Shown here: positions 4,096-35,996 of the stretch, piece by piece | Layout: each line of letters begins with the position of its first letter | Position numbering within the stretch: the first letter of the stretch is position 1 | Source: Solirubrobacteraceae bacterium | GTDB taxonomy: Bacteria > Actinomycetota > Thermoleophilia > Solirubrobacterales > Solirubrobacteraceae | Length of the DNA stretch: 36,125 nucleotides | Direction: 5' to 3' | Assembly: GCA_017882455.1 (NCBI GenBank) | Contig: JADGPL010000029.1 | Span: forward strand, 1-36,125 | Notes under the pieces: generated by a model | Seen by the model: only the letters and a program-made list of their open reading frames with translations | The model's database searches: none | Told to the model about the DNA's origin: nothing | Made by a program: the position numbers and the translations under genes

Positions 4096-4605
4096 TCAAC
4101 GCCCAGGGTTAAACCTCGCGATGAACCAGTCCGCAGCCTCACACGCGACATCCTTCAGCGCCAATGCCTTGACCGTACCAATACCCTCGTTTAGCCCGTG
4201 CGCAATCTTGTTGCGCCGATCGACGAGAAACGCAAGCTCCCGGCGCAGGCGCTGGTCGTCCGCCTCCAACAAAGCCTCCAGCTCGGCTGACCATTCGGTA
4301 TCGAATCGGCCTGCCAACAAACACAATGAATCAGGCCACGGGTTTTTTCCTCGCTCCAGCCAAGACTGGCCAAATGTTCGCACTGGCCCTGCTGAACGGC
4401 CCGCCAAATAGCCGCGGGAGACCAGGATCACCGTTTGCTCAAGATAACCACACCCACGTACAACGAGCAAGCGCGCTAGCCAATCTCGCGCCTCGGCTGA
4501 TGAATCGCCGGCCGGTAGTGCGACTAGATTCGCGAGCTCATCGAGACGGAGCTTTAGTTTTGTGACCTCACTCGGAGGCCAGTTCGCCACGACAGCTGTC
4601 GCCAT
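4096..4605 (-). CDS. HEPN-domain protein, candidate RNase toxin/effector
   Basis: 169 residues, largely helical. The HEPN signature R-x4-H is present near the C-terminus as R131-N-K-I-A-H136 followed by glycine (FLVDRRNKIAHG). In HEPN nucleases such as RNase LS, Swt1-like and RiboL-PSP-HEPN proteins this motif forms the metal-independent RNase site of a dimer. An upstream basic/aromatic segment (VSRGYLAGRSAGPVRTFG) resembles those in RiboL-PSP/MAE_28990-type HEPN proteins. It lies 29 bases downstream of the DUF262 gene on the same strand, so the two are almost certainly one operon. Similar DUF262-HEPN neighbours are known from defence islands. RNase activity is inferred from the motif only. 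Confidence 0.7.
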   Translation of the reverse strand: MATAVVANWPPSEVTKLKLRLDELANLVALPAGDSSAEARDWLARLLVVRGCGYLEQTVILVSRGYLAGRSAGPVRTFGQSWLERGKNPWPDSLCLLAGRFDTEWSAELEALLEADDQRLRRELAFLVDRRNKIAHGLNEGIGTVKALALKDVACEAADWFIARFNPGR

Positions 4606-4634: not shown

Positions 4635-5810
4635 TTACCGCTGCGCGAAGATCTTGGTGGCTATTGCGAGTCGGGTGCGCACTGCGTCCTCGTCGGCAGT
4701 CGCGCGTGATATTGACCGCTGCAAGTCACTGTCAGCGAGCAGTTCTTCGGTCCCAAGCTTTACGGCGGCCGGATCGAGCGTATCGCCGCTATCCAAACGC
4801 CTAAACAGGCCGACAAGAACCGCCTCCGTGAGGGCCGCGTTCACTTGGCGACTGCCGCTACGAAGTCCATCCTGCCCAGGTCCCGCCTTGGCCGCGAGAA
4901 GCTCGGTGCTCACGTTGAACCGCTGCTCGACCGTATCACCTGGGAACTGCTCGAGATTGCGATGGTCCGCCACGAAGTCATTGAGATACTTCTTTAGGGG
5001 ACGATGGTAGGTGCCAGGCGAGATATACAAGGCGACGACTCGGAGTATCAGCTCCTGATCGCGCAAGCGTGGGGATTCGGGGCCGTAGAGCGCGCGCCAG
5101 CTTGGAGAAGCGTTGAGCCGCGTTAGGTACTCAATCAAGGGGCCCGCATAGAGAGCCACGCGAATCTCGTGGGGAGTAAGCTGCGTACCTCCAGAGTTGA
5201 GACGCTCAAATACCTGATAAACGGCGTCGAGCGATGCGGCAGAGCCATCCGTTTTGACGATCGTTGCCTGGATAAATGTATTGTCGAGAGCGCGACGACG
5301 ATCTTCCGGCAATCCCCGGTAGGTAAGGTCGCGAAACTCATCTCCGACGTTGCGTAGTGCAAATGGTTTACCGAGATGTTCGCCGCGGTAGAAGTCGGCC
5401 ATGGTGCGTAGCCGCTGCTGCCCGTCTAGGACGAGATAGCGCTTGTCAGCTTGCTGAACCAGAAAGATTCCCGGTATCGGATAGCCGAGTAGCAACGACT
5501 CGATGAATCGATCCATTTGCGGGCGGTTCCACACAAAGCCGCGCTGAAACCGCGCGGTCTCGATCTGATCTTCCCCGACCACCGGCCCCTCGGCATCGTC
5601 ACGACCAAAGGTTGGGATGACGATGTCATCCCGCTCTAGGCGGCGCACGAGTCCCTCGATATCGAAGTCGGAGCCACTATAGACAACGGGCTCCGGATGA
5701 GGGTCGGGGGCCTCAAGTTCGGCGAGATCTTGGGAGACCAGCTCCTCCGGATCTACCGGCTCCTCGGAATGGGTAGAGCCATCAGTCTCCTGCTCAGCTA
5801 CGTTGGTCAT
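4635..5810 (-). CDS. DUF262 (GmrSD N-terminal/ParB-like) protein
   Basis: 391 residues. After an acidic, probably disordered N-terminus (about residues 1-45) comes a DUF262 domain: FQRGFVWN at 88-95, ESLLLGYPIPGIFL at 104-117, the ParB-like nucleotide motif DGQQR at 129-133, and FERLNSGGTQLTPHEIR around 206-222. DUF262 is the N-terminal part of GmrS/GmrD modification-dependent restriction enzymes and of several phage-defence proteins (BrxU, SspE-type); the DGQQR motif is linked to NTP binding or hydrolysis. No HNH DUF1524 nuclease motif is visible in the C-terminal half, so the nuclease partner is probably the downstream HEPN protein. Start: ATG at 5810, with none upstream giving better coverage. 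Confidence 0.85.
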   Translation of the reverse strand: MTNVAEQETDGSTHSEEPVDPEELVSQDLAELEAPDPHPEPVVYSGSDFDIEGLVRRLERDDIVIPTFGRDDAEGPVVGEDQIETARFQRGFVWNRPQMDRFIESLLLGYPIPGIFLVQQADKRYLVLDGQQRLRTMADFYRGEHLGKPFALRNVGDEFRDLTYRGLPEDRRRALDNTFIQATIVKTDGSAASLDAVYQVFERLNSGGTQLTPHEIRVALYAGPLIEYLTRLNASPSWRALYGPESPRLRDQELILRVVALYISPGTYHRPLKKYLNDFVADHRNLEQFPGDTVEQRFNVSTELLAAKAGPGQDGLRSGSRQVNAALTEAVLVGLFRRLDSGDTLDPAAVKLGTEELLADSDLQRSISRATADEDAVRTRLAIATKIFAQR

Positions 5811-25861: not shown

Positions 25862-28753
25862 ATGAACGCTGCGGGGACACAGCGACCAGGCGCGTTCCGA
25901 GCAAACGCACATCTCGTCCGGCTGGACTACAAGCTCGTAGAGGAACAGCGCCTGCGCGAGGCCCAACTGGGAGCCTGCGCAGCGCTGCTCTCGCACAGGG
26001 CTCTCAGCCGGGCCCCAGCGCAAATCGTGCTGCCGACTGGCGTCGGGAAGTCGCTGGTGCTCACTGCCGCCCCCTACCTGCTGCGCGCCGAACGCGTGCT
26101 GGTTGTCGCACCGGGACGACTGGTTCGCGATCAGCTCTACAACGGGTTCAAGACACTCGATCAGCTGACCCGCGCAGGCGTACTGCCCAACGGCACCGCC
26201 CCACCCGAGGTACGCGTCGCGCGCAAGCTTGCCACGCCGGAGGACTGGGAGCACTGGGAAGCCGCCGACGTAGTCATCGGCACCCCCCACGTACTCAGCG
26301 ACGGCTACCCAAATGTGACGCGCGTACCACGGAACCTGTTCGATCTGATCCTCTTCGACGAGGCGCACCACCTGCCGGCGAGCACATGGACGAAGCTGCA
26401 CGATGCCGTGGACGCTCGCGCTGTGCTGCTGACCGCAACACCGGTGCGGCGCGATGGCAAGCGTCTACCAGGTGAGATCGCGTTCGTGTATCCGCTGGAG
26501 CGAGCGTTGGACACGAAGGTGTACTCGCCGGTCGAGTACATCCCTGTCACGCCAGCTGCCGGTGAAGAGAAAGATCACGCGCTGGCCATGAAGGCAAAGG
26601 AGCGTCTGCTCAGCGACGCGCACACCGCAGCCAACAGTCGCCTGCTCGTCCGCGCTGACCGGCGCATAGATGCGGAAGCGCTCGTCGAGCTCTACCGATC
26701 AATCGCGGTGCCGTTGGGTTTGATCGTCGCAAGTAGCAGCGCGCGCAACGTTCGCAGCACGCTGGAGAAGCTGACCTCCGGAGAGTTGCTCGGGCTAGCG
26801 TGCGTCGGGTCGCTCACCGAGGGATTCGACTTCCCTACGCTGAAGATCGCGGCGTACCACACGCCCCATCGCTCCCTACAGCCAACTTTGCAGTTCCTCG
26901 GCCGGCTTTCCCGGGTTACTACGATCACTGGAGAGCTCATAGCGGACCCTCGTGATCTCTCGCGAGACACCGCAACGCTCTACCGAAGTGATGAGGCATG
27001 GTCGCGGCTATTGCCCCAGATCGTCGACTCGGCGGTACAGCTTGAGCGCGACACGCGCCGGTTCATCGACCGGGCGCAGCCAGCTGGCGGACCGGTCGCT
27101 CTCCCCTGGCTCGCGCTCGCACCCCCCCGCTCGGTGCAGATCTACCGGGTCCCTGAGCGTCCCACACTCGACCTGAGCCCGGACCTGCTCGGCCGCCAGC
27201 GAGTCACCCAACGCCTCTACCAGCCCGAGCACGATCTGCTCGCGGTCCTGACGGAGGAGCGTTCGCGCCCTCGGTTCGCCACATCCAGCCACCTGGACGG
27301 CTACGCACACCATCTCCACCTCGCCCATTGGGTACGCGAGCATGGGCTGCTGTTTATCTCAAGCGACAGGCCATCCGCCCAGGCCGAACTGCTCGCGCAA
27401 GCCGGAGTGACTGGCGCGCCGCTGATTGGCGCCTCGGACCTACGCAGGCTGCTTGCGGCGACAAACGCAAAGCGATTCTTCAACGTGGGCCTGCGTGAGA
27501 GCCGGCCACGGGAGGCGTTCAACGCCTCCTACGAGACGCTCGCGGGCCCACATGCCGACGCCGCAGTTGGTGCAGACGACGTCGAGAACAAGCTGCTCGG
27601 CCACGCGATGGGACGCATTGGCAGCGGAGCAGGCACCTTCGGGATCTCCACCGCCAAGGGAAAGTACTGGGAGCCAGCGCGTGCCGCGAGCCTGTTCGAG
27701 TTCAAGGAATGGTGCGCACAGTGCGCAGTCAATGTCACCGCCGGCGCTGGCGCCGGCTCACCGACGGCGCTTCACAGCCTCAGGATCGCCGACCGCATCA
27801 TGCGGTACCCGGAGCATCCCATCGCCGCGAGCCTCAACGAGAGATTCCTCGCCGGCAACCAAAGTCTGGTGCTCGGCCAGCAGGAGATTGCGCCCGTCGA
27901 CATCGACATCGACATGGAACGGACCGATGACACCCATCTCTGCCTGACTCTCTGTCACCACGGGTCGCCGGTGACACGCATCACGACAAACGTGAACGGA
28001 ACTTTCGAGGCGGAGGACGATGCTTACGCACTGGATCTCGATAGCGGAGAGCTGAGCGCTCTTGGGGTGAGCCTTCAGTCCGCGCCGCCGACGATCTACT
28101 TCGGGGACGGCTCAGCCGTCATAGGATCGACGAGCAGCACCCCAAAGATCGAGCCCGGCGGCGACCCTCCGGAGTTCGCGATCGGCCTTGGATGGGCTGG
28201 GGTCAACCTCGCCGTCGAGGCAGGAGATGCAGGACCAGCGCTAATCAACATCCAAGAGTCCACGCGGCGCTACGCCGCGCAGCACGCAACATGGCTGATC
28301 ACCGACCACGGCACTGGAGAGCTCGCCGACCTCGTCGCGATCACGACGGGAACAGCAGGAGCCACAACGGTGGAGTTCATGCACTGCAAGGGCAGCAAAA
28401 AACCGCCAGGAGGGCGAGTCGAAGACCTTTATGAGGTGATCGGACAGGCCCTGCGCAGCGTGCGTCACTGCCGTGAGGGTGAGAGCCTCTGGCGCGAGCT
28501 GAGCAGCAGGCTCGCTTCCCGCGCGAGCACTAGGGTCCTCAATGGCGACGCCACCACGCTGACGGCGGCTCTTGCGCACTGGTCCAGTGGCGGCGCTCCG
28601 CTCACGACCTTCAAGGTCACGGCCGTGCAGCCGGGACTACTGCTGTCGCAGGCCGGTAGCAGCACAACCATCCGCCAGTTGCTGTTCGCTGCGAACGCTC
28701 ACTGCTTCGCACAAGGCGTCCAGCTGCAGTTGTGGTGCAACGACGGGTCCTGA
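25862..28753 (+). CDS. DEAH superfamily 2 helicase with large unknown C-terminus
   Basis: 963 residues. Residues ~35-400 are an SF2 helicase: Walker A PTGVGKS at 58-64, DEAH at 166-169, TATP at 191-194, EGFDFP around 320-325, and motif VI QFLGRLSR at 344-351. The remaining ~560 residues match nothing I can name. Near the C-terminus, LADLVAI (D823), then VEFMHCKGS (E838, H841, K843), then GGRVEDLYEVIGQALRS resemble the spacing of a PD-(D/E)xK nuclease core, with H in place of the usual acid two before Lys. The gene stands alone between attachment site and integrase, where such elements carry cargo. A defence role is an inference. Confidence 0.8.
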   Translation: MNAAGTQRPGAFRANAHLVRLDYKLVEEQRLREAQLGACAALLSHRALSRAPAQIVLPTGVGKSLVLTAAPYLLRAERVLVVAPGRLVRDQLYNGFKTLDQLTRAGVLPNGTAPPEVRVARKLATPEDWEHWEAADVVIGTPHVLSDGYPNVTRVPRNLFDLILFDEAHHLPASTWTKLHDAVDARAVLLTATPVRRDGKRLPGEIAFVYPLERALDTKVYSPVEYIPVTPAAGEEKDHALAMKAKERLLSDAHTAANSRLLVRADRRIDAEALVELYRSIAVPLGLIVASSSARNVRSTLEKLTSGELLGLACVGSLTEGFDFPTLKIAAYHTPHRSLQPTLQFLGRLSRVTTITGELIADPRDLSRDTATLYRSDEAWSRLLPQIVDSAVQLERDTRRFIDRAQPAGGPVALPWLALAPPRSVQIYRVPERPTLDLSPDLLGRQRVTQRLYQPEHDLLAVLTEERSRPRFATSSHLDGYAHHLHLAHWVREHGLLFISSDRPSAQAELLAQAGVTGAPLIGASDLRRLLAATNAKRFFNVGLRESRPREAFNASYETLAGPHADAAVGADDVENKLLGHAMGRIGSGAGTFGISTAKGKYWEPARAASLFEFKEWCAQCAVNVTAGAGAGSPTALHSLRIADRIMRYPEHPIAASLNERFLAGNQSLVLGQQEIAPVDIDIDMERTDDTHLCLTLCHHGSPVTRITTNVNGTFEAEDDAYALDLDSGELSALGVSLQSAPPTIYFGDGSAVIGSTSSTPKIEPGGDPPEFAIGLGWAGVNLAVEAGDAGPALINIQESTRRYAAQHATWLITDHGTGELADLVAITTGTAGATTVEFMHCKGSKKPPGGRVEDLYEVIGQALRSVRHCREGESLWRELSSRLASRASTRVLNGDATTLTAALAHWSSGGAPLTTFKVTAVQPGLLLSQAGSSTTIRQLLFAANAHCFAQGVQLQLWCNDGS

Positions 28754-30091: not shown

Positions 30092-30310
30092 TCACGCTAC
30101 ACGTCGCCCCTGCTGGATCGTGTGCTCTTTGAGCCACTCCTCGAGCGACTGTCTGGGGTACAGCCGCAGCGCTCCCGAGTAGACGACCGGGAGGTCGGGC
30201 TTGACGTGCCGGGCGAAGTGATCCACGGATATGCCGAGCGCTTCCGCGGCCTCCTGCTGATTGAAGGCGAGGCGCGGCACCGTGCGCCGCATGCGCTTCT
30301 CGCTCGTCAT
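30092..30310 (-). CDS. Excisionase-like helix-turn-helix protein
   Basis: 72 residues with a MerR/AlpA-type helix-turn-helix (FNQQEAAEALGISVDHFARHV) and wing (LPVVYSGALRLYPRQSLEEWL). This is the DNA-binding excisionase pattern found next to tyrosine integrases. The ATG overlaps the relaxase stop by four bases (ATGA), and the integrase starts six bases later, so the three genes are one leftward transcript. It probably directs excision or represses integration. Confidence 0.88.
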   Translation of the reverse strand: MTSEKRMRRTVPRLAFNQQEAAEALGISVDHFARHVKPDLPVVYSGALRLYPRQSLEEWLKEHTIQQGRRVA

Positions 30311-32958
30311 CGTGTTCGCTCTTGTGCTGGTGGCTTGATGGCGCGGTGGAGTGTGCGGATGACGCCGGGGAGGCGTGGGGCGTAGCGCTCGGGGCCTCGG
30401 CTTGCGATCGTGCGATCGAATCCTGGCCAGCGTTCGTAGCCGGGTGGCTCTGGGTGTGCGAGGGACGGTGTTTGGATGCGGCTGCGGCCCATGTCTCGCG
30501 CGAGACGTTTGATTCGGGCGGCGTCATGGCCGTCGGTGCCGAGATCGTCTCGGTTGACGTACCAGTCGGTTCCTTGGCGGGCGCGGGATGCCTCTACGTA
30601 TGCGGGCTCCTTGCTGGTCTGCCAGCCGCCCGTCACGACGAGCGTGCGTGTCACGGTCGCGCCCTGCGCGCGGTGGATGTGGCTGGCGTACCCGAGCCGT
30701 AGGCGTGCGAGCTCGTCGCCGGCGAGTGTTCGCCACTGGTGGGTGGCGTCGAACTGGATCAGCACCTCGCCGGTCTCGTTGATGTCGATGACCTCACCGC
30801 GGGCGCCGTTCTCGACGCGCTCACTACCGAGCTGGTGGTGCTGGTCGATCATCGCCACCCGATCACCCGCACGGACGCCGTAGTGGACGCCCGGCACCTG
30901 GACTTCGATGTCGCCGAGTTCGCCGCGCTCGGCGCGATAGTGCTGAGCCCGCGCGTTCAGGCGGTTGATCTCCACATTGGATGCGTCAGAGATCAGCGCA
31001 ACCTCACTGATCGGGATCGTCTCGGTCAGCATGGCCCATCCCTGGACAGCGCGCTCAACAGCCTCATCGCGGGTGTCGCTCATATGTAGCTGGCCTCTGC
31101 GGAGGTAGTGCGCCATCGCCCTGTCAGAACGGCCGGCGCGCAAATCCGCCCACGCCCTCTGCTCGGCGCGGTCAAGGGTGCGCCGCACGTTCGATAGCTG
31201 CGCGCTCGGCGCGATCTCTGCGAGCCGATCGAACATGCCACCCGCGCCAATCGAGGGGAGCTGCGCGCCATCACCGATCGCCACGAGCTTCGCCCCCGTC
31301 CGGTCAACCACCTCAGTCAGCCGGTCGAGCCTGCTCGTGTCCGCCATCCCCGCCTCGTCAAAGAAGATCGTCGTGCGCGCGTCGATGTCGAGCCGGCCAT
31401 GCTCGACTCTCGCCACGAGCGCATCGAGCGTCAGCGTCCGCCCGGCCAGCGCGGGGCTGTCTTGGCCGAGACGCTGCGCGGTAGAGCCGGACACCGCGAT
31501 CCCGTAGGTGTGGTGGCCGGTGAGCTGCTCTGCTCTCGCGGCGGCGTCGATCACCACGCCCTTGCCGGTGCCTGCTGGCCCGACGAGGACCGCAGCACGC
31601 TCCGGGCCGGTGATCGCATGGAGCGCCAGGGCCTGCTCGTCGCTCAGGCGCGAGCCGATCCGCTCCGCGAGCTGGTCACTGGCGACCGTGCGCGCCTGCT
31701 CGCCCACGTCCCTGCCGGCGGGCTGGGCGAGCTGCGTGACCCTGCGCTCGATCGCCTGCTCTTTGGCGCGTACTGCGAGCGTCGTCATCCGCCCGCCCTC
31801 CAACGGGAGCACGCGACGCTCGGCGATCATCCCCCGCGCCCTGGCAAGCGCGTCCGCTGGAGAGAGTTCACCAGCGGACTGCTCGAGCAGCACCGCGCGC
31901 AGCTCGCCGGGCTCGAATGTCGCGGCGCGCTCGGTCAATCGTTCTTCGACGCGATCCTCAAGCGCACGCCCCGCACGCGAGCGATCGCCGCGCGTCCCGT
32001 CGGGTAGCTCAAGCTGGGAGCCGTGGCGTGCGGCCTTCTCATCCCACACCCGCTGCAGATCCACATGGGTGACGGGGAGCTTGGCCTTACGGTTCTCCAG
32101 CTTCAGCCGCCGCAGCTCGCCATGCTCGGGTGCCCTCCCCCACTTCGCCCGGAACTGCTCAGCCGCCCGTGCGACCTCACGGCTGCGAGCAGAGAACACA
32201 TCGAGCAACCCCTGCGGCACCCCTGCGATCTCAAAATAGCGGCCCTCCTTCCCCGTCCCTCCGTCGATCTCATAGCCGCGCTCAGACAGCTCGTGTGCGA
32301 GCGCGGAACGGTAGAACGCACCAACCTCACGACCAGAGCGAAAGACCGGCCGTGAGGCAACCGCCACGATCCGTCCGTCATCCCTGACCGCGCTCGTGAC
32401 GACCACGTGACTGTGCAGCTGCGGGTCCGGTGCGTCGCCATCCATCACGCCGCGCGCGGTCGTGTGCAGATACTCCGCGGCGATCAGCTCGCGGGCCGGC
32501 TCCTCCACCACCCCGCGGCCATACCGGCGCCGCACGGCCGGCACTGTCTCGGTCATGTGCTCGATCGCCTGCTCGACCGCGCTTCGGTGCGCCTCCTCGA
32601 TCACTCCCCGCTCGTGTTCATCGCCGAGCGCCCACGTCACCGACACAGACTTCGGCGCGCTGAACGTCACATCGACCCCACCACCCCGGCAGCCGTCCGC
32701 CCCGGCACGGCGAAGCCAGCCGCCACCCCTCGGGTGCCTGCCCTCCATCAACGCGATGAAGTCCGGGCCATCGACGACGCTGCTCTCGATGCCGAGCTGC
32801 GCGAGCGTGTCCGCCGACGCGAGCCACCGGCCGGGCGCCTGCGCGGGCTCGCCGCCGGGCGTGAGGTAGTAGTCGCCGCGCTCGGGCTGGACGGTCTTGC
32901 CCTCCAGATACCGGGCGTAGCCGCCGCCTTTCGCGGCACCAATGCTCGATGCAGTCAT
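30307..32958 (-). CDS. MobF-family relaxase with helicase domain
   Basis: 883 residues from ATG 32958 (MTASSIGAAKGGGYARYL); GTG/ATG codons a little upstream are alternatives. The relaxase part (about 1-300) has VDVTFSAPKSVSVTWAL and the His cluster LHSHVVVTSAVRDDGR of TrwC/TraA enzymes. The second half is a RecD-like SF1 helicase: GPAGTGKG (Walker A), FFDEAGM (Walker B), IGDGAQLPSIG, and YASHIHRAQGATV with VEASRARQG near the end. Such proteins nick at oriT and unwind DNA during transfer. No mating-pore genes are visible, so the element is likely mobilised by a helper. Probable oriT is upstream. Confidence 0.93.
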   Translation of the reverse strand: MTASSIGAAKGGGYARYLEGKTVQPERGDYYLTPGGEPAQAPGRWLASADTLAQLGIESSVVDGPDFIALMEGRHPRGGGWLRRAGADGCRGGGVDVTFSAPKSVSVTWALGDEHERGVIEEAHRSAVEQAIEHMTETVPAVRRRYGRGVVEEPARELIAAEYLHTTARGVMDGDAPDPQLHSHVVVTSAVRDDGRIVAVASRPVFRSGREVGAFYRSALAHELSERGYEIDGGTGKEGRYFEIAGVPQGLLDVFSARSREVARAAEQFRAKWGRAPEHGELRRLKLENRKAKLPVTHVDLQRVWDEKAARHGSQLELPDGTRGDRSRAGRALEDRVEERLTERAATFEPGELRAVLLEQSAGELSPADALARARGMIAERRVLPLEGGRMTTLAVRAKEQAIERRVTQLAQPAGRDVGEQARTVASDQLAERIGSRLSDEQALALHAITGPERAAVLVGPAGTGKGVVIDAAARAEQLTGHHTYGIAVSGSTAQRLGQDSPALAGRTLTLDALVARVEHGRLDIDARTTIFFDEAGMADTSRLDRLTEVVDRTGAKLVAIGDGAQLPSIGAGGMFDRLAEIAPSAQLSNVRRTLDRAEQRAWADLRAGRSDRAMAHYLRRGQLHMSDTRDEAVERAVQGWAMLTETIPISEVALISDASNVEINRLNARAQHYRAERGELGDIEVQVPGVHYGVRAGDRVAMIDQHHQLGSERVENGARGEVIDINETGEVLIQFDATHQWRTLAGDELARLRLGYASHIHRAQGATVTRTLVVTGGWQTSKEPAYVEASRARQGTDWYVNRDDLGTDGHDAARIKRLARDMGRSRIQTPSLAHPEPPGYERWPGFDRTIASRGPERYAPRLPGVIRTLHRAIKPPAQERTR

Positions 32959-33392
32959 CACTACTGTTAATGACCGTGAGCGGCCGAAAACGGCCACCCG
33001 ATTTCGGGGAGATGGCTATCCACGCCCTGTATAGACCCCAACCGCCCAAGACCGGCCAACGACTTTCCCGGCACGCTGGGGGAGCGCGTACAAGGAGGCG
33101 AAGCCGACGCCTCCGATGCAGGTAGCGGCGGCCACCCGGCCGCAACCACCCCCGACGCCCGCGCCACCACGTAGCCCTGCGCGCCCAGACTGGCGATACG
33201 CGCGGCCCCTCACCGCTCGAAGGCCCGCCCGCGCAGTCGGCGACCCGAGTATCCCCGCTCGCAGGACACAGCAATCGCACAGCACCCGCTGGTGTGTGCA
33301 TCATGTCTGTTCTGGCCGTTGTGCTGTGCGTCGGCGTGTGGCGTAGTCGGCGCACAGCGTTGCGTCGGGGTGCTGCTGTAGCGTCGCGGCTC
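32959..33392. promoter_or_regulatory. Relaxase upstream region with candidate oriT hairpin
   Basis: 434 bases between the divergent relaxase and HEPN genes with no credible ORF. A perfect 7-bp hairpin GGAGGCG-N7-CGCCTCC lies at 33094-33114, 136 bases upstream of the relaxase ATG. MobF oriT sites usually lie next to the relaxase gene and include inverted repeats, so this is a candidate; no nic site can be assigned. Divergent promoters for both genes should also lie here. Confidence 0.35.
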
Positions 33393-33980
33393 ATGGCTTC
33401 AAAGTCGCTCATGGATTGGCGATCGGACGCGGCGGCGGCGTTCGACGAGATCGAGAACGCGCATAAGGCAGTCGGCGGGAGCAAGCCGGGCCGGCGGTTC
33501 TTGACCCAGCAGCTCAACTACGCCTACACGATGCTGCTCGCGGCGCGCTTCCAGGGATTCGCCCGCGCGCTACACGCGCAGACCGCAGACGCTATCGCGC
33601 TCGGGGCACACGACGCCAACTACGCGGAGCTGTTGTATGGAAGCCTGACGAACAACACGACTCTTGAACGGAACAACGCACATCCCAACTCGATCGCTGA
33701 CGACTTCGCACGCTTCGGGCTCGACATCTGGGCCGATGTCGATCGGGAGCGCAGCCGCAACGACGAGCGTCGCAAGAAGCTCTGGGCGCTCGTCACGTGG
33801 CGCAACGCGATCGCGCACGACGATATCGATGCCAAGCTCAAGAGAGGGGCTCTGGAACCCTTGACGATCAGCCTCGCCACGTGCCGTGGCTGGCGCAGCG
33901 CGCTCAACATCCTGGCCACATCGCTCGATAAGGTCGCAGCCGACCGCTGCCAAGCGCTCGGACTTTCCCGTCCTTGGTGA
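33393..33980 (+). CDS. HEPN-motif protein of the mobile element
   Basis: 195 residues from ATG 33393 (MASKSLMDWRSDAAAAFDEI); an upstream in-frame ATG at 33294 adds residues unlike the rest. The protein is mostly helical. R137-N-A-I-A-H142 followed by acidic residues (VTWRNAIAHDDID) fits the HEPN R-x4-H signature. A segment LNYAYTMLLAARFQGFARAL is typical of the RiboL-PSP-HEPN group, where a conserved helix precedes the motif. It may be an RNase toxin or a stress/defence effector. It is followed 12 bases later by a small beta-rich protein, an arrangement like toxin and antitoxin. Confidence 0.65.
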   Translation: MASKSLMDWRSDAAAAFDEIENAHKAVGGSKPGRRFLTQQLNYAYTMLLAARFQGFARALHAQTADAIALGAHDANYAELLYGSLTNNTTLERNNAHPNSIADDFARFGLDIWADVDRERSRNDERRKKLWALVTWRNAIAHDDIDAKLKRGALEPLTISLATCRGWRSALNILATSLDKVAADRCQALGLSRPW

Positions 33981-33992
33981 TACCTTCAGATC

Positions 33993-34208
33993 ATGGCACG
34001 CAACAGGACATCCTCAGCCGGCTCGCTCAAGGTCGGTGACCACGTGACCTCGAAGCTTCCAGCCTTCAACTGGAAGGGCGTTATCGTCGAGGATCTTGGT
34101 CCGCTCGGTATCGACGGCAGCGAGATCTTCGTGATCCGCGTAGGCGACGAGGACGACGGCCGACGCTTCAACGCGCGCGCCGAAAGCCTCGAACGCGTAG
34201 CGGCGTAG
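33993..34208 (+). CDS. Small beta-barrel-like protein downstream of HEPN
   Basis: 71 residues: after a basic, polar start, LKVGDHVTSKLPAFNWKGVIVED and SEIFVIRVGDEDDGRRFNARAESL suggest a small SH3/KOW- or CYTH-like barrel. I do not recognise a family. The ATG lies 12 bases after the HEPN stop on the same strand, so they are co-transcribed. By position it could be the partner or antidote of the HEPN protein. An independent nucleic-acid- or ribosome-binding role is equally possible. Confidence 0.6.
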   Translation: MARNRTSSAGSLKVGDHVTSKLPAFNWKGVIVEDLGPLGIDGSEIFVIRVGDEDDGRRFNARAESLERVAA

Positions 34209-34280: not shown

Positions 34281-34499
34281 TCAGTCCTTGGGCGCCAGCG
34301 TCGACAGCGGAACGCCCATCCCATCGGCCAGCGCGATCATCACGTCATACGTGGGATCGAGCCGTCCAGCTTCAAGGGCGCTGATCCGCTGTGCGGCAAT
34401 GCCGGTTCTTGCGGTGAGGTCCGCGACGGTGGTTCCCTGGTGTTCGCGCACCCGCCGGAACGACTCGCCAAAGCGGATCAGCTCAGCTCGCTCGTCCAT
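34281..34499 (-). CDS. XRE-family transcriptional regulator
   Basis: 72 residues from ATG 34499 (MDERAELIRFGESFRRVREH). The Cro/C1 helix-turn-helix is clear: TVADLTARTGIAAQRISALEAGRLDPTYDVMIALADGMGVPL. It consists almost only of the DNA-binding domain, as in small immunity repressors of mobile elements or antitoxins. It overlaps the last 17 bases of the upstream two-component-like regulator on the same strand, so they are co-expressed. It could control the element's own genes or the neighbouring HEPN unit. Confidence 0.88.
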   Translation of the reverse strand: MDERAELIRFGESFRRVREHQGTTVADLTARTGIAAQRISALEAGRLDPTYDVMIALADGMGVPLSTLAPKD

Positions 34500-35231: not shown

Positions 35232-35296
35232 ATCGGGTCGGGGCCGGGCTTAACCCGGCCCCTCCCACACCACCGGACATGCGGGTCCGCATCCGG
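35232..35296 (-). ncRNA. Group II intron domains V and VI (3' end)
   Basis: On the reverse strand, CCGGATGCGG-ACC-CGCATGTCCGG (35273-35296) makes the domain V hairpin, followed by GGTGGTGTGGGAG and a perfect stem GGGGCCGGG/CCCGGCCCC (35240-35262) with loop TTAAG as domain VI. The sequence then ends in GACCCGAT, like known bacterial intron 3' ends. Exon boundary is at about 35232. These structures overlap the last codons of the maturase frame. Confidence 0.72.
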
Positions 35297-35996
35297 CGGT
35301 TCGCGTCGTGTCCCGGAAACGGCGGTAAGGGTCGGCGAATCCCTTCAGGCCCTGCTCGGCCCAGTAGGCATCTGGTAGGGCGCGCTTGAGGAAGGTGCGT
35401 GCTGCACGCCAGGAGCCCTTGTTGGTCATGGCCCACTCGCGGGCCTCCCGGTCGGGCATTCCCAGCGCCTGCAGGCGGCTCCATCGTGTTCTGATGCGCT
35501 GCCATTCCTTCCAGCGTGCCTGTCTCATCCTGCCTCTGAGCCAGCCGTCGAGCTCGATGAACGGTGTGGGTGTGTCGGCGAACGCGAAGTAGGCCGTCCA
35601 CCCAACCGTGAAGCGGTTGATCTCAGTGATCCTCCGCTGCATCGAGACACCCCAAGTACGGGAGGTCAAACGGCGTATCTGGTCCTTGGCCCGCTTGCGG
35701 GCTTTGGGGTCCAGCCACACCTTGACCTCGCCTTTGCGGCGGTGAAAGCAGAACCCCAGAAAGGGGCGCCTTCCCGCCCGGTCCACCGCGGACTTCCCTT
35801 GGTTGACCTTCAACTTGAGGCTGTGTTCGACGTATCCGCTGATGCTCTGCAGGACGCGCTGTCCCGCCCGCTCGCTGGCGACATAGATCCTGCTGTCGTC
35901 CGCGTAGCGCACGAAACGGTGCCCGCGCCGATCAAGCTCCCAGTCGAGGTCGTCGAGCATGACGTTTGAGAGCAGCGGCGAGAGGACTGCTCCCAC
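35250..35996 (-). pseudogene. Group II intron reverse transcriptase/maturase, 5'-truncated
   Basis: About 248 residues from the reverse strand: GAVLSPLLSNVMLDDL (RT block 4), RFVRYADDSRIYV with the catalytic YADD, FLGFCFHRRKGEV (block 6-7), then a maturase domain (RLTSRTWGVSMQRRITEINRF, VGWTAYFAFADTP). RT blocks 0-3 are missing, as is the intron's 5' RNA domain. The frame runs into unrelated recombinase sequence at about 35997, so the intron is truncated by recombination or deletion. The remnant cannot retrohome. Confidence 0.9.

Follow-up and report, generated by a model that had tools for sequence, protein, structure and literature searches.

A conserved, apparently undescribed two-gene module pairs a HEPN protein with a small SH3-like barrel

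Toxin-antitoxin, abortive-infection and CRISPR systems all make central use of HEPN RNases. In a stretch of 36,125 nucleotides from a Solirubrobacteraceae bacterium (contig JADGPL010000029.1; hereafter the window), a gene for a HEPN-type protein is directly followed by a gene for a small beta-rich protein, and an earlier note on this DNA proposed that the two form a toxin-antitoxin or defence unit. This raises the questions of whether the two genes belong together, whether the small protein is tied to this kind of HEPN protein, and what such a pair may do. The pair proves to be a real, conserved and apparently undescribed two-gene module.

The HEPN protein and its barrel partner

The HEPN gene (33393-33980, + strand) encodes a predicted RNase effector of 195 residues that ends in Pro-Trp and carries RNAIAH at residues 137-142 (codons at 33801-33818, + strand), at the position and in the frame given by the earlier note. 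The hexapeptide has the form of the R-x(4-6)-H active-site motif of the HEPN superfamily, and its R137, N138 and H142 are invariant in all 58 aligned members, together with W9 and N95. Residues F53, Q54, R58, L60 and H61 are also invariant across the 58, an invariance that is partly built in because FQ[GL][FY][AC]R[DA]LH was the pattern of the 64-locus scan described below. We do not read a second active-site motif into this FQxxxRxLH helix, given the circularity with the search pattern and a HEPN found via a shorter pattern (L129) that has Y in place of H61. A Trp lies within the last three residues in 50/58 members, with a C-terminal Pro-Trp in 43/58; the genes of the 58 pairs use all three stop codons, so that the C-terminus of the protein, and not an overlapping signal, seems to be conserved.

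The best family match is Pfam HEPN_RiboL-PSP (PF18735), reached by 51 of the 58 aligned members at E≤0.1; the window protein matches it at E 3.4e-5 and 24.3 bits, below the curated cut-off of 28.4. A weak Pfam match links the window protein to the MAE_28990/MAE_18760 HEPN families (E 0.0084). The AlphaFold2 model is all helical (pLDDT 95.3), as expected of the all-alpha HEPN fold. Foldseek alone gives no significant match for this model (best E 0.37) or for that of the partner (best E 0.026), and structural support for both folds comes from a second aligner. Its top six rows for the HEPN model comprise five HEPN or HepT/MntA entries and YutE (Z 9.0-7.7, rmsd 3.8-4.8 over 127-138 residues), followed by a row at Z 7.1; Csm6 and MtlR entries rank lower, and unrelated helical rows trail the HEPN-type rows by only a small margin. 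Z values in this range do not suffice by themselves to establish the predicted HEPN fold, with which the Pfam matches of the 51 members agree.

The partner gene (33993-34208, + strand) begins after a gap of 12 bases (33981-33992), exactly the spacing that had been noted, with no obvious Shine-Dalgarno motif in the window. Across the family, the gap is short or overlapping in most of the 58 pairs, and a Shine-Dalgarno-like motif precedes the partner in 33 of them. Two small adjacent genes in an operon-like arrangement, probably co-transcribed, correspond to the layout of type II toxin-antitoxin pairs. The 71-residue product was suspected of having an SH3/KOW-like pattern, and this is borne out: its AlphaFold2 model is a small five-stranded barrel (pLDDT 78.9) that aligns best with KOW, Tudor and other SH3-like barrels. 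The window partner alone has no Pfam or NCBIfam match. A profile of the family matches Spt5 KOW (E 1.2e-4) and, weakly, the ProQ_C and PriA barrels. The partner thus resembles the KOW and SH3-like barrels (Spt5, NusG, L24, ProQ_C, PriA) in fold and weakly in sequence; unlike them, it is small, stands alone, is tied to a HEPN gene and leans acidic. At L045 (4609-5121), a tandem pair of barrel domains lies behind a single HEPN gene.

Conservation and specificity of the pairing

The earlier note had set conserved pairing in homologues as a check, and pairing is strongly conserved. In a first round of loci, a barrel gene lies just downstream of the HEPN gene in 7/7, the window included, one of which (L004) has a HEPN without its C-terminal part. 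A first scan of genome contigs with a single protein as query found nothing; a HEPN-only search of the genome collection, run with a six-row HEPN alignment, gave 64 loci. A six-frame search places a barrel gene directly downstream in 56/56 loci with a full-length HEPN, defined as a match from profile position ≤5 to ≥189 in one frame, or 54/54 without L028 and L050, which repeat L002 and L003. Eight loci lie outside this count: L053, in which HEPN and partner are both broken; L054, L070 (at a contig end), L073, L078 and L079, which are HEPN fragments without a partner; and L068 and L072, in which the HEPN is broken and the partner present. A partner profile iterated from the downstream frames matches the downstream ORF in 58/64 loci and 0/4081 reversed decoys, and in the 494,979 bases of the loci, read in six frames, no partner match occurs away from a HEPN gene. 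Eleven of the 64 loci were left out of the alignments, namely the repeats L028 and L050 and the broken, partial or misframed L053, L054, L068, L070, L072, L073, L076, L078 and L079, as was L064, which has unread bases; alignments A5 and A6 also omit L005-L007. Upstream of the first pair at L046, a second pair (1189-1902) has a broken HEPN frame and an intact partner.

Both genes are under purifying selection, with dN/dS below 1 between close pairs: in HEPN and partner it is, for example, 0.05 and 0.03 between L042 and L044, and 0.16 and 0.48 between L056 and L058. HEPN and partner distances correlate (r 0.75), and none of 2000 permutations reaches this value. That the adjacency is accidental and the small ORF not a gene, for which one might cite the missing Pfam or NCBIfam match of the window partner, can be dismissed on the strength of the 56/56 survey, the dN/dS values below 1, and the plasmids of L006 and L007, in which a gene is annotated where the partner lies.

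The forward association, from HEPN to partner, appears specific to this HEPN subfamily. PF18735 occurs at ten places in 149 genomes, one of which is the window pair; none of the other nine (0/9) has a barrel partner at E<0.01. A profile search of 294 genomes from the phylum of L060 (genome G483, titled planctomycete) found four strong HEPN matches (E<1e-45), all with a partner, and five weak ones without. This test is less independent than 4/4 suggests because only G661 is new: G483 is the genome of L060, and by sequence G749 is that of L035 and G654 that of L054. The HEPN helix of G661 reads FQGYCRSLH, which the pattern of the 64-locus scan would have missed. In G654 (L122, L128), the HEPN gene lies in two halves more than 1 Mb apart on the same contig and on opposite strands, with an intact partner behind the C-terminal half.

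The reverse association, from partner to HEPN, is less clean. The partner profile, searched against 396 genomes, matches in 23 genomes at E≤0.001, and the seven matches at E<1e-7 comprise three by a HEPN gene, one without a HEPN gene (L080) and three that are the ends of nucleotidyltransferases (L082, L084, L085); among the weaker matches, L097 and the HEPN-linked G469 were examined singly. At L080 (1438-1737), the partner-like gene precedes a frame that looks ArsR-like by eye. At L082 (1015-1692), L084 (1003-1680) and L085 (1489-2334, − strand), a nucleotidyltransferase encoded behind an XRE-like gene has a partner-like barrel as its C-terminus. The L082 protein weakly matches AbiEii, DUF6036 and Aminoglyc_resit, and some relatives of the nucleotidyltransferase show a match that stops at about residue 165.

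Distribution and genomic context

The family is rare and patchy, yet occurs across several phyla, on plasmids and in integrase or relaxase neighbourhoods. Within the window's phylum, it is present in 7/396 genomes: G000, G292 and G273 have a HEPN with a clear partner; in G362 and G469 the HEPN gene is broken and the partner match weak; and no partner accompanies the HEPN fragment of G180 or the weak, distant match of G262. The seven HEPN loci of the first round come from 4/101 related genomes, the window's own included, and from three plasmids, two belonging to Nocardia and the third a MOBF plasmid from Mycobacteroides abscessus. The pair occurs in Streptomyces, mycobacteria and planctomycetes as well; phyla follow the submitters' titles, mostly of metagenome bins, and Armatimonadota and Pseudomonadota are each a single tree row. 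In the HEPN tree, L002 is the neighbour of the window (91/70), the two lying among rows from mixed phyla, and L003, from the same genus, sits in a starred actinobacterial clade. Two deep lineages inside one genus suggest transfer, or old paralogues.

In the window, the pair lies next to genes typical of mobile elements, as had been proposed: a TrwC-family relaxase (30307-32997, − strand; E 1.7e-64), a tyrosine integrase and an HTH_17 gene. On a viral contig, L129, the pair stands just after a frame named integrase-like by eye. The XRE regulator named in the earlier note is a real HTH match (E 7.4e-10; about 34281-34499, − strand, convergent), and it looks incidental to the pair; as a third part it is unsupported, no Pfam family recurring in more than 2 of the 148 nearest flanking ORFs. 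These flanks are mostly unrelated metabolic genes, and with no recurrent family among those listed, the unit seems to consist of these two genes only. Between the relaxase and the HEPN gene there are only short repeats, and a promoter and terminator scan, uninformative here, found none.

Other genes of the window deserve mention in their own right. A second HEPN_RiboL-PSP gene (4096-4605, − strand; E 1.1e-7) directly follows a GmrSD_N gene (4635-5810, − strand; E 1.7e-28), and L103 and L107 likewise have GmrSD_N-like frames ahead of their PF18735 HEPNs, so that this represents another two-gene HEPN arrangement. A 963-residue ResIII/DEAD helicase-type protein (25862-28753, + strand) adjoins the integrase, and part of a group II intron maturase/reverse transcriptase (35250-35996, − strand) lies near the contig end.

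What the pair may do

Several described HEPN systems invite comparison. In HEPN/MNT (HepT/MntA; PMC7641770), an MNT adenylyltransferase is the best understood protein partner that switches off a HEPN RNase, with MntA adenylylating the tyrosine of an RX4HXY motif. The present pair is similar in having an RNase-type HEPN protein with an RX4H motif and an adjoining smaller partner gene, and HepT is among its best structural rows. However, the partner is a five-stranded SH3-like barrel without a Pfam match and not a minimal nucleotidyltransferase, and the tyrosine is absent in 58/58 members, with D at that place in 47/58; in the absence of both nucleotidyltransferase and modifiable tyrosine, membership in HEPN/MNT is rejected. 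PF18735 is the closest family, but the window protein falls below its cut-off, and the other PF18735 places lack a barrel, some lying beside a GmrSD_N-like gene. For the MAE_28990/MAE_18760 families, PMC3710099 describes operons that combine the HEPN gene with others, and for MAE_18760 a fusion to "a novel beta rich domain"; the associations given there are ParB nuclease and methylase genes, ParA, or fusions, and not a small barrel gene. In the abstract, outline and relevant passages of that article we found no pair of HEPN and small barrel, and in the passages of PMC12839542 on HEPN and Tudor domains in BREX-related systems nothing resembling one. RnlA is described in PMC7180214. Our literature search, which covered mainly open-access journal articles, returned no description of the pair, and PADLOC-DB 2.0.0 has no family matching either window protein at E≤10.

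The toxin-antitoxin or defence unit first suggested for this locus is a reasonable reading given the HEPN motif, the patchy spread, the occurrence on plasmids and near integrases and the fact that no third gene is conserved; conserved pairing and mobile placement are supported, and the regulator looks incidental. In the reading we prefer, with a probability of roughly 0.55, the pair is one mobile, self-contained conflict module in which a predicted HEPN RNase toxin is held in check by the barrel. The HEPN protein would cut RNA as a metal-independent endoribonuclease, relying on R137 and H142 in its active site and probably acting as a homodimer. The barrel, probably made from the same message, would bind the basic HEPN protein and block its RNase, which could be released when the barrel is lost or displaced, as upon element loss, phage infection or stress. 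The charges of the two proteins are compatible with such binding: HEPN proteins are net positive in 52/55 cases (median pI 9.6), and partner cores net negative in 35/55 (median pI 5.7). Together with joint evolution and a distribution like that of mobile modules, these charges favour inhibition over a role of the barrel as guide or sensor. Against an inhibitor count the 15/55 partner cores that are net positive, and against a conflict module the mostly ordinary metabolic flanks. The gene order also counts against a toxin-antitoxin pair, as the effector precedes its partner, which according to PMC3710099 is less usual among type II pairs.

Loss of one member of the pair does not decide the matter. 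Six loci or copies (L004, L012, the first copy of L046, L068, L072 and G654) have a broken HEPN and a kept partner, which in L012 is a weak match only (E 0.0074), and none shows the reverse. This asymmetry was rejected as proof of addiction, since it is not significant once length is allowed for, (585/800)^6 being about 0.15; moreover, the broken HEPNs are mostly in draft or metagenome assemblies, where frameshifts can be errors.

The main rival is a phage-defence RNase complex in which the barrel serves as sensor or guide, bringing the HEPN RNase to targets that could be ribosomes, RNA polymerase or the nucleic acid of an invader, and swapped extensions add sensing or cutting; we hold it to be a possible, if rather doubtful, account. 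Binding of RNA or DNA fits the partner's matches to nucleic-acid-binding barrels (Spt5 KOW, ProQ_C, PriA) as well as inhibition does. In 20/53 pairs, the partner continues for at least 65 residues after the barrel, more than a plain antitoxin needs, which counts against an inhibitor, and at least three kinds of extension can be told apart by eye. The actinobacterial partners of L030, L039, L047 and L064 show by eye a D...ExK arrangement, which we take to be a nuclease motif; that of L039 has a clear DUF2188 match and a weak, below-cut-off match to the HSDR_N nuclease (E 5.1e-4), so that this kind may be nuclease-like, judging by the motif and one weak match. Planctomycete partners share an extension of about 100 residues (QPRVWL region, by eye; L018, L023, L025, L026, L029, L032, L035, L037, L052, L060 and L072), for which Pfam, with L018 as sole query, gives no match. 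On the other hand, the barrel is followed by no more than 23 residues in 33/53 partners, and the acidic lean of the cores also speaks against this account. Searches of the flanks tell the same way: 34 PADLOC models match, and each of the 25 listed occurs in 1/148 ORFs (raw counts), so that none of the defence families listed recurs and the matches look like scattered single ORFs, not a defence island. The tblastn search, with three queries, has no match in 50,697 phage records, a further point against this account. PHROGs likewise gave no match, and viral contigs yielded none with alignment A1 and one with alignment A5.

A non-toxic RNA-processing or regulatory pair, in which the HEPN protein trims a particular RNA and the barrel is its RNA-binding subunit, would suit the purifying selection on both genes, the KOW-like matches and the metabolic flanks; it is improbable in view of the very patchy occurrence (7/396, 4/101 and four strong matches in 294 genomes), the plasmid, relaxase and integrase contexts, the decayed copies and the two deep lineages inside one genus.

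Returning to the inhibitor reading, its widest form is tentative: the pairs may be cross-phylum HEPN RNase switches in which the barrel inhibits, and exchangeable C-terminal domains, nuclease-like in actinobacteria and of about 100 residues in planctomycetes, sense invaders and release the RNase. If this is true, the similar barrel that ends the AbiEii/DUF6036-like nucleotidyltransferase would point to a control element that different conflict systems can reuse. HEPN RNases would gain a further mode of control from a barrel-type partner that accompanies one HEPN subfamily in several phyla, and the pair is small enough for quick testing. Such a partnership would also assign a function to the genes now listed as hypothetical proteins on plasmids of Nocardia and Mycobacteroides (the annotated records L006 and L007), and to their counterparts in Streptomyces, mycobacteria and planctomycetes.
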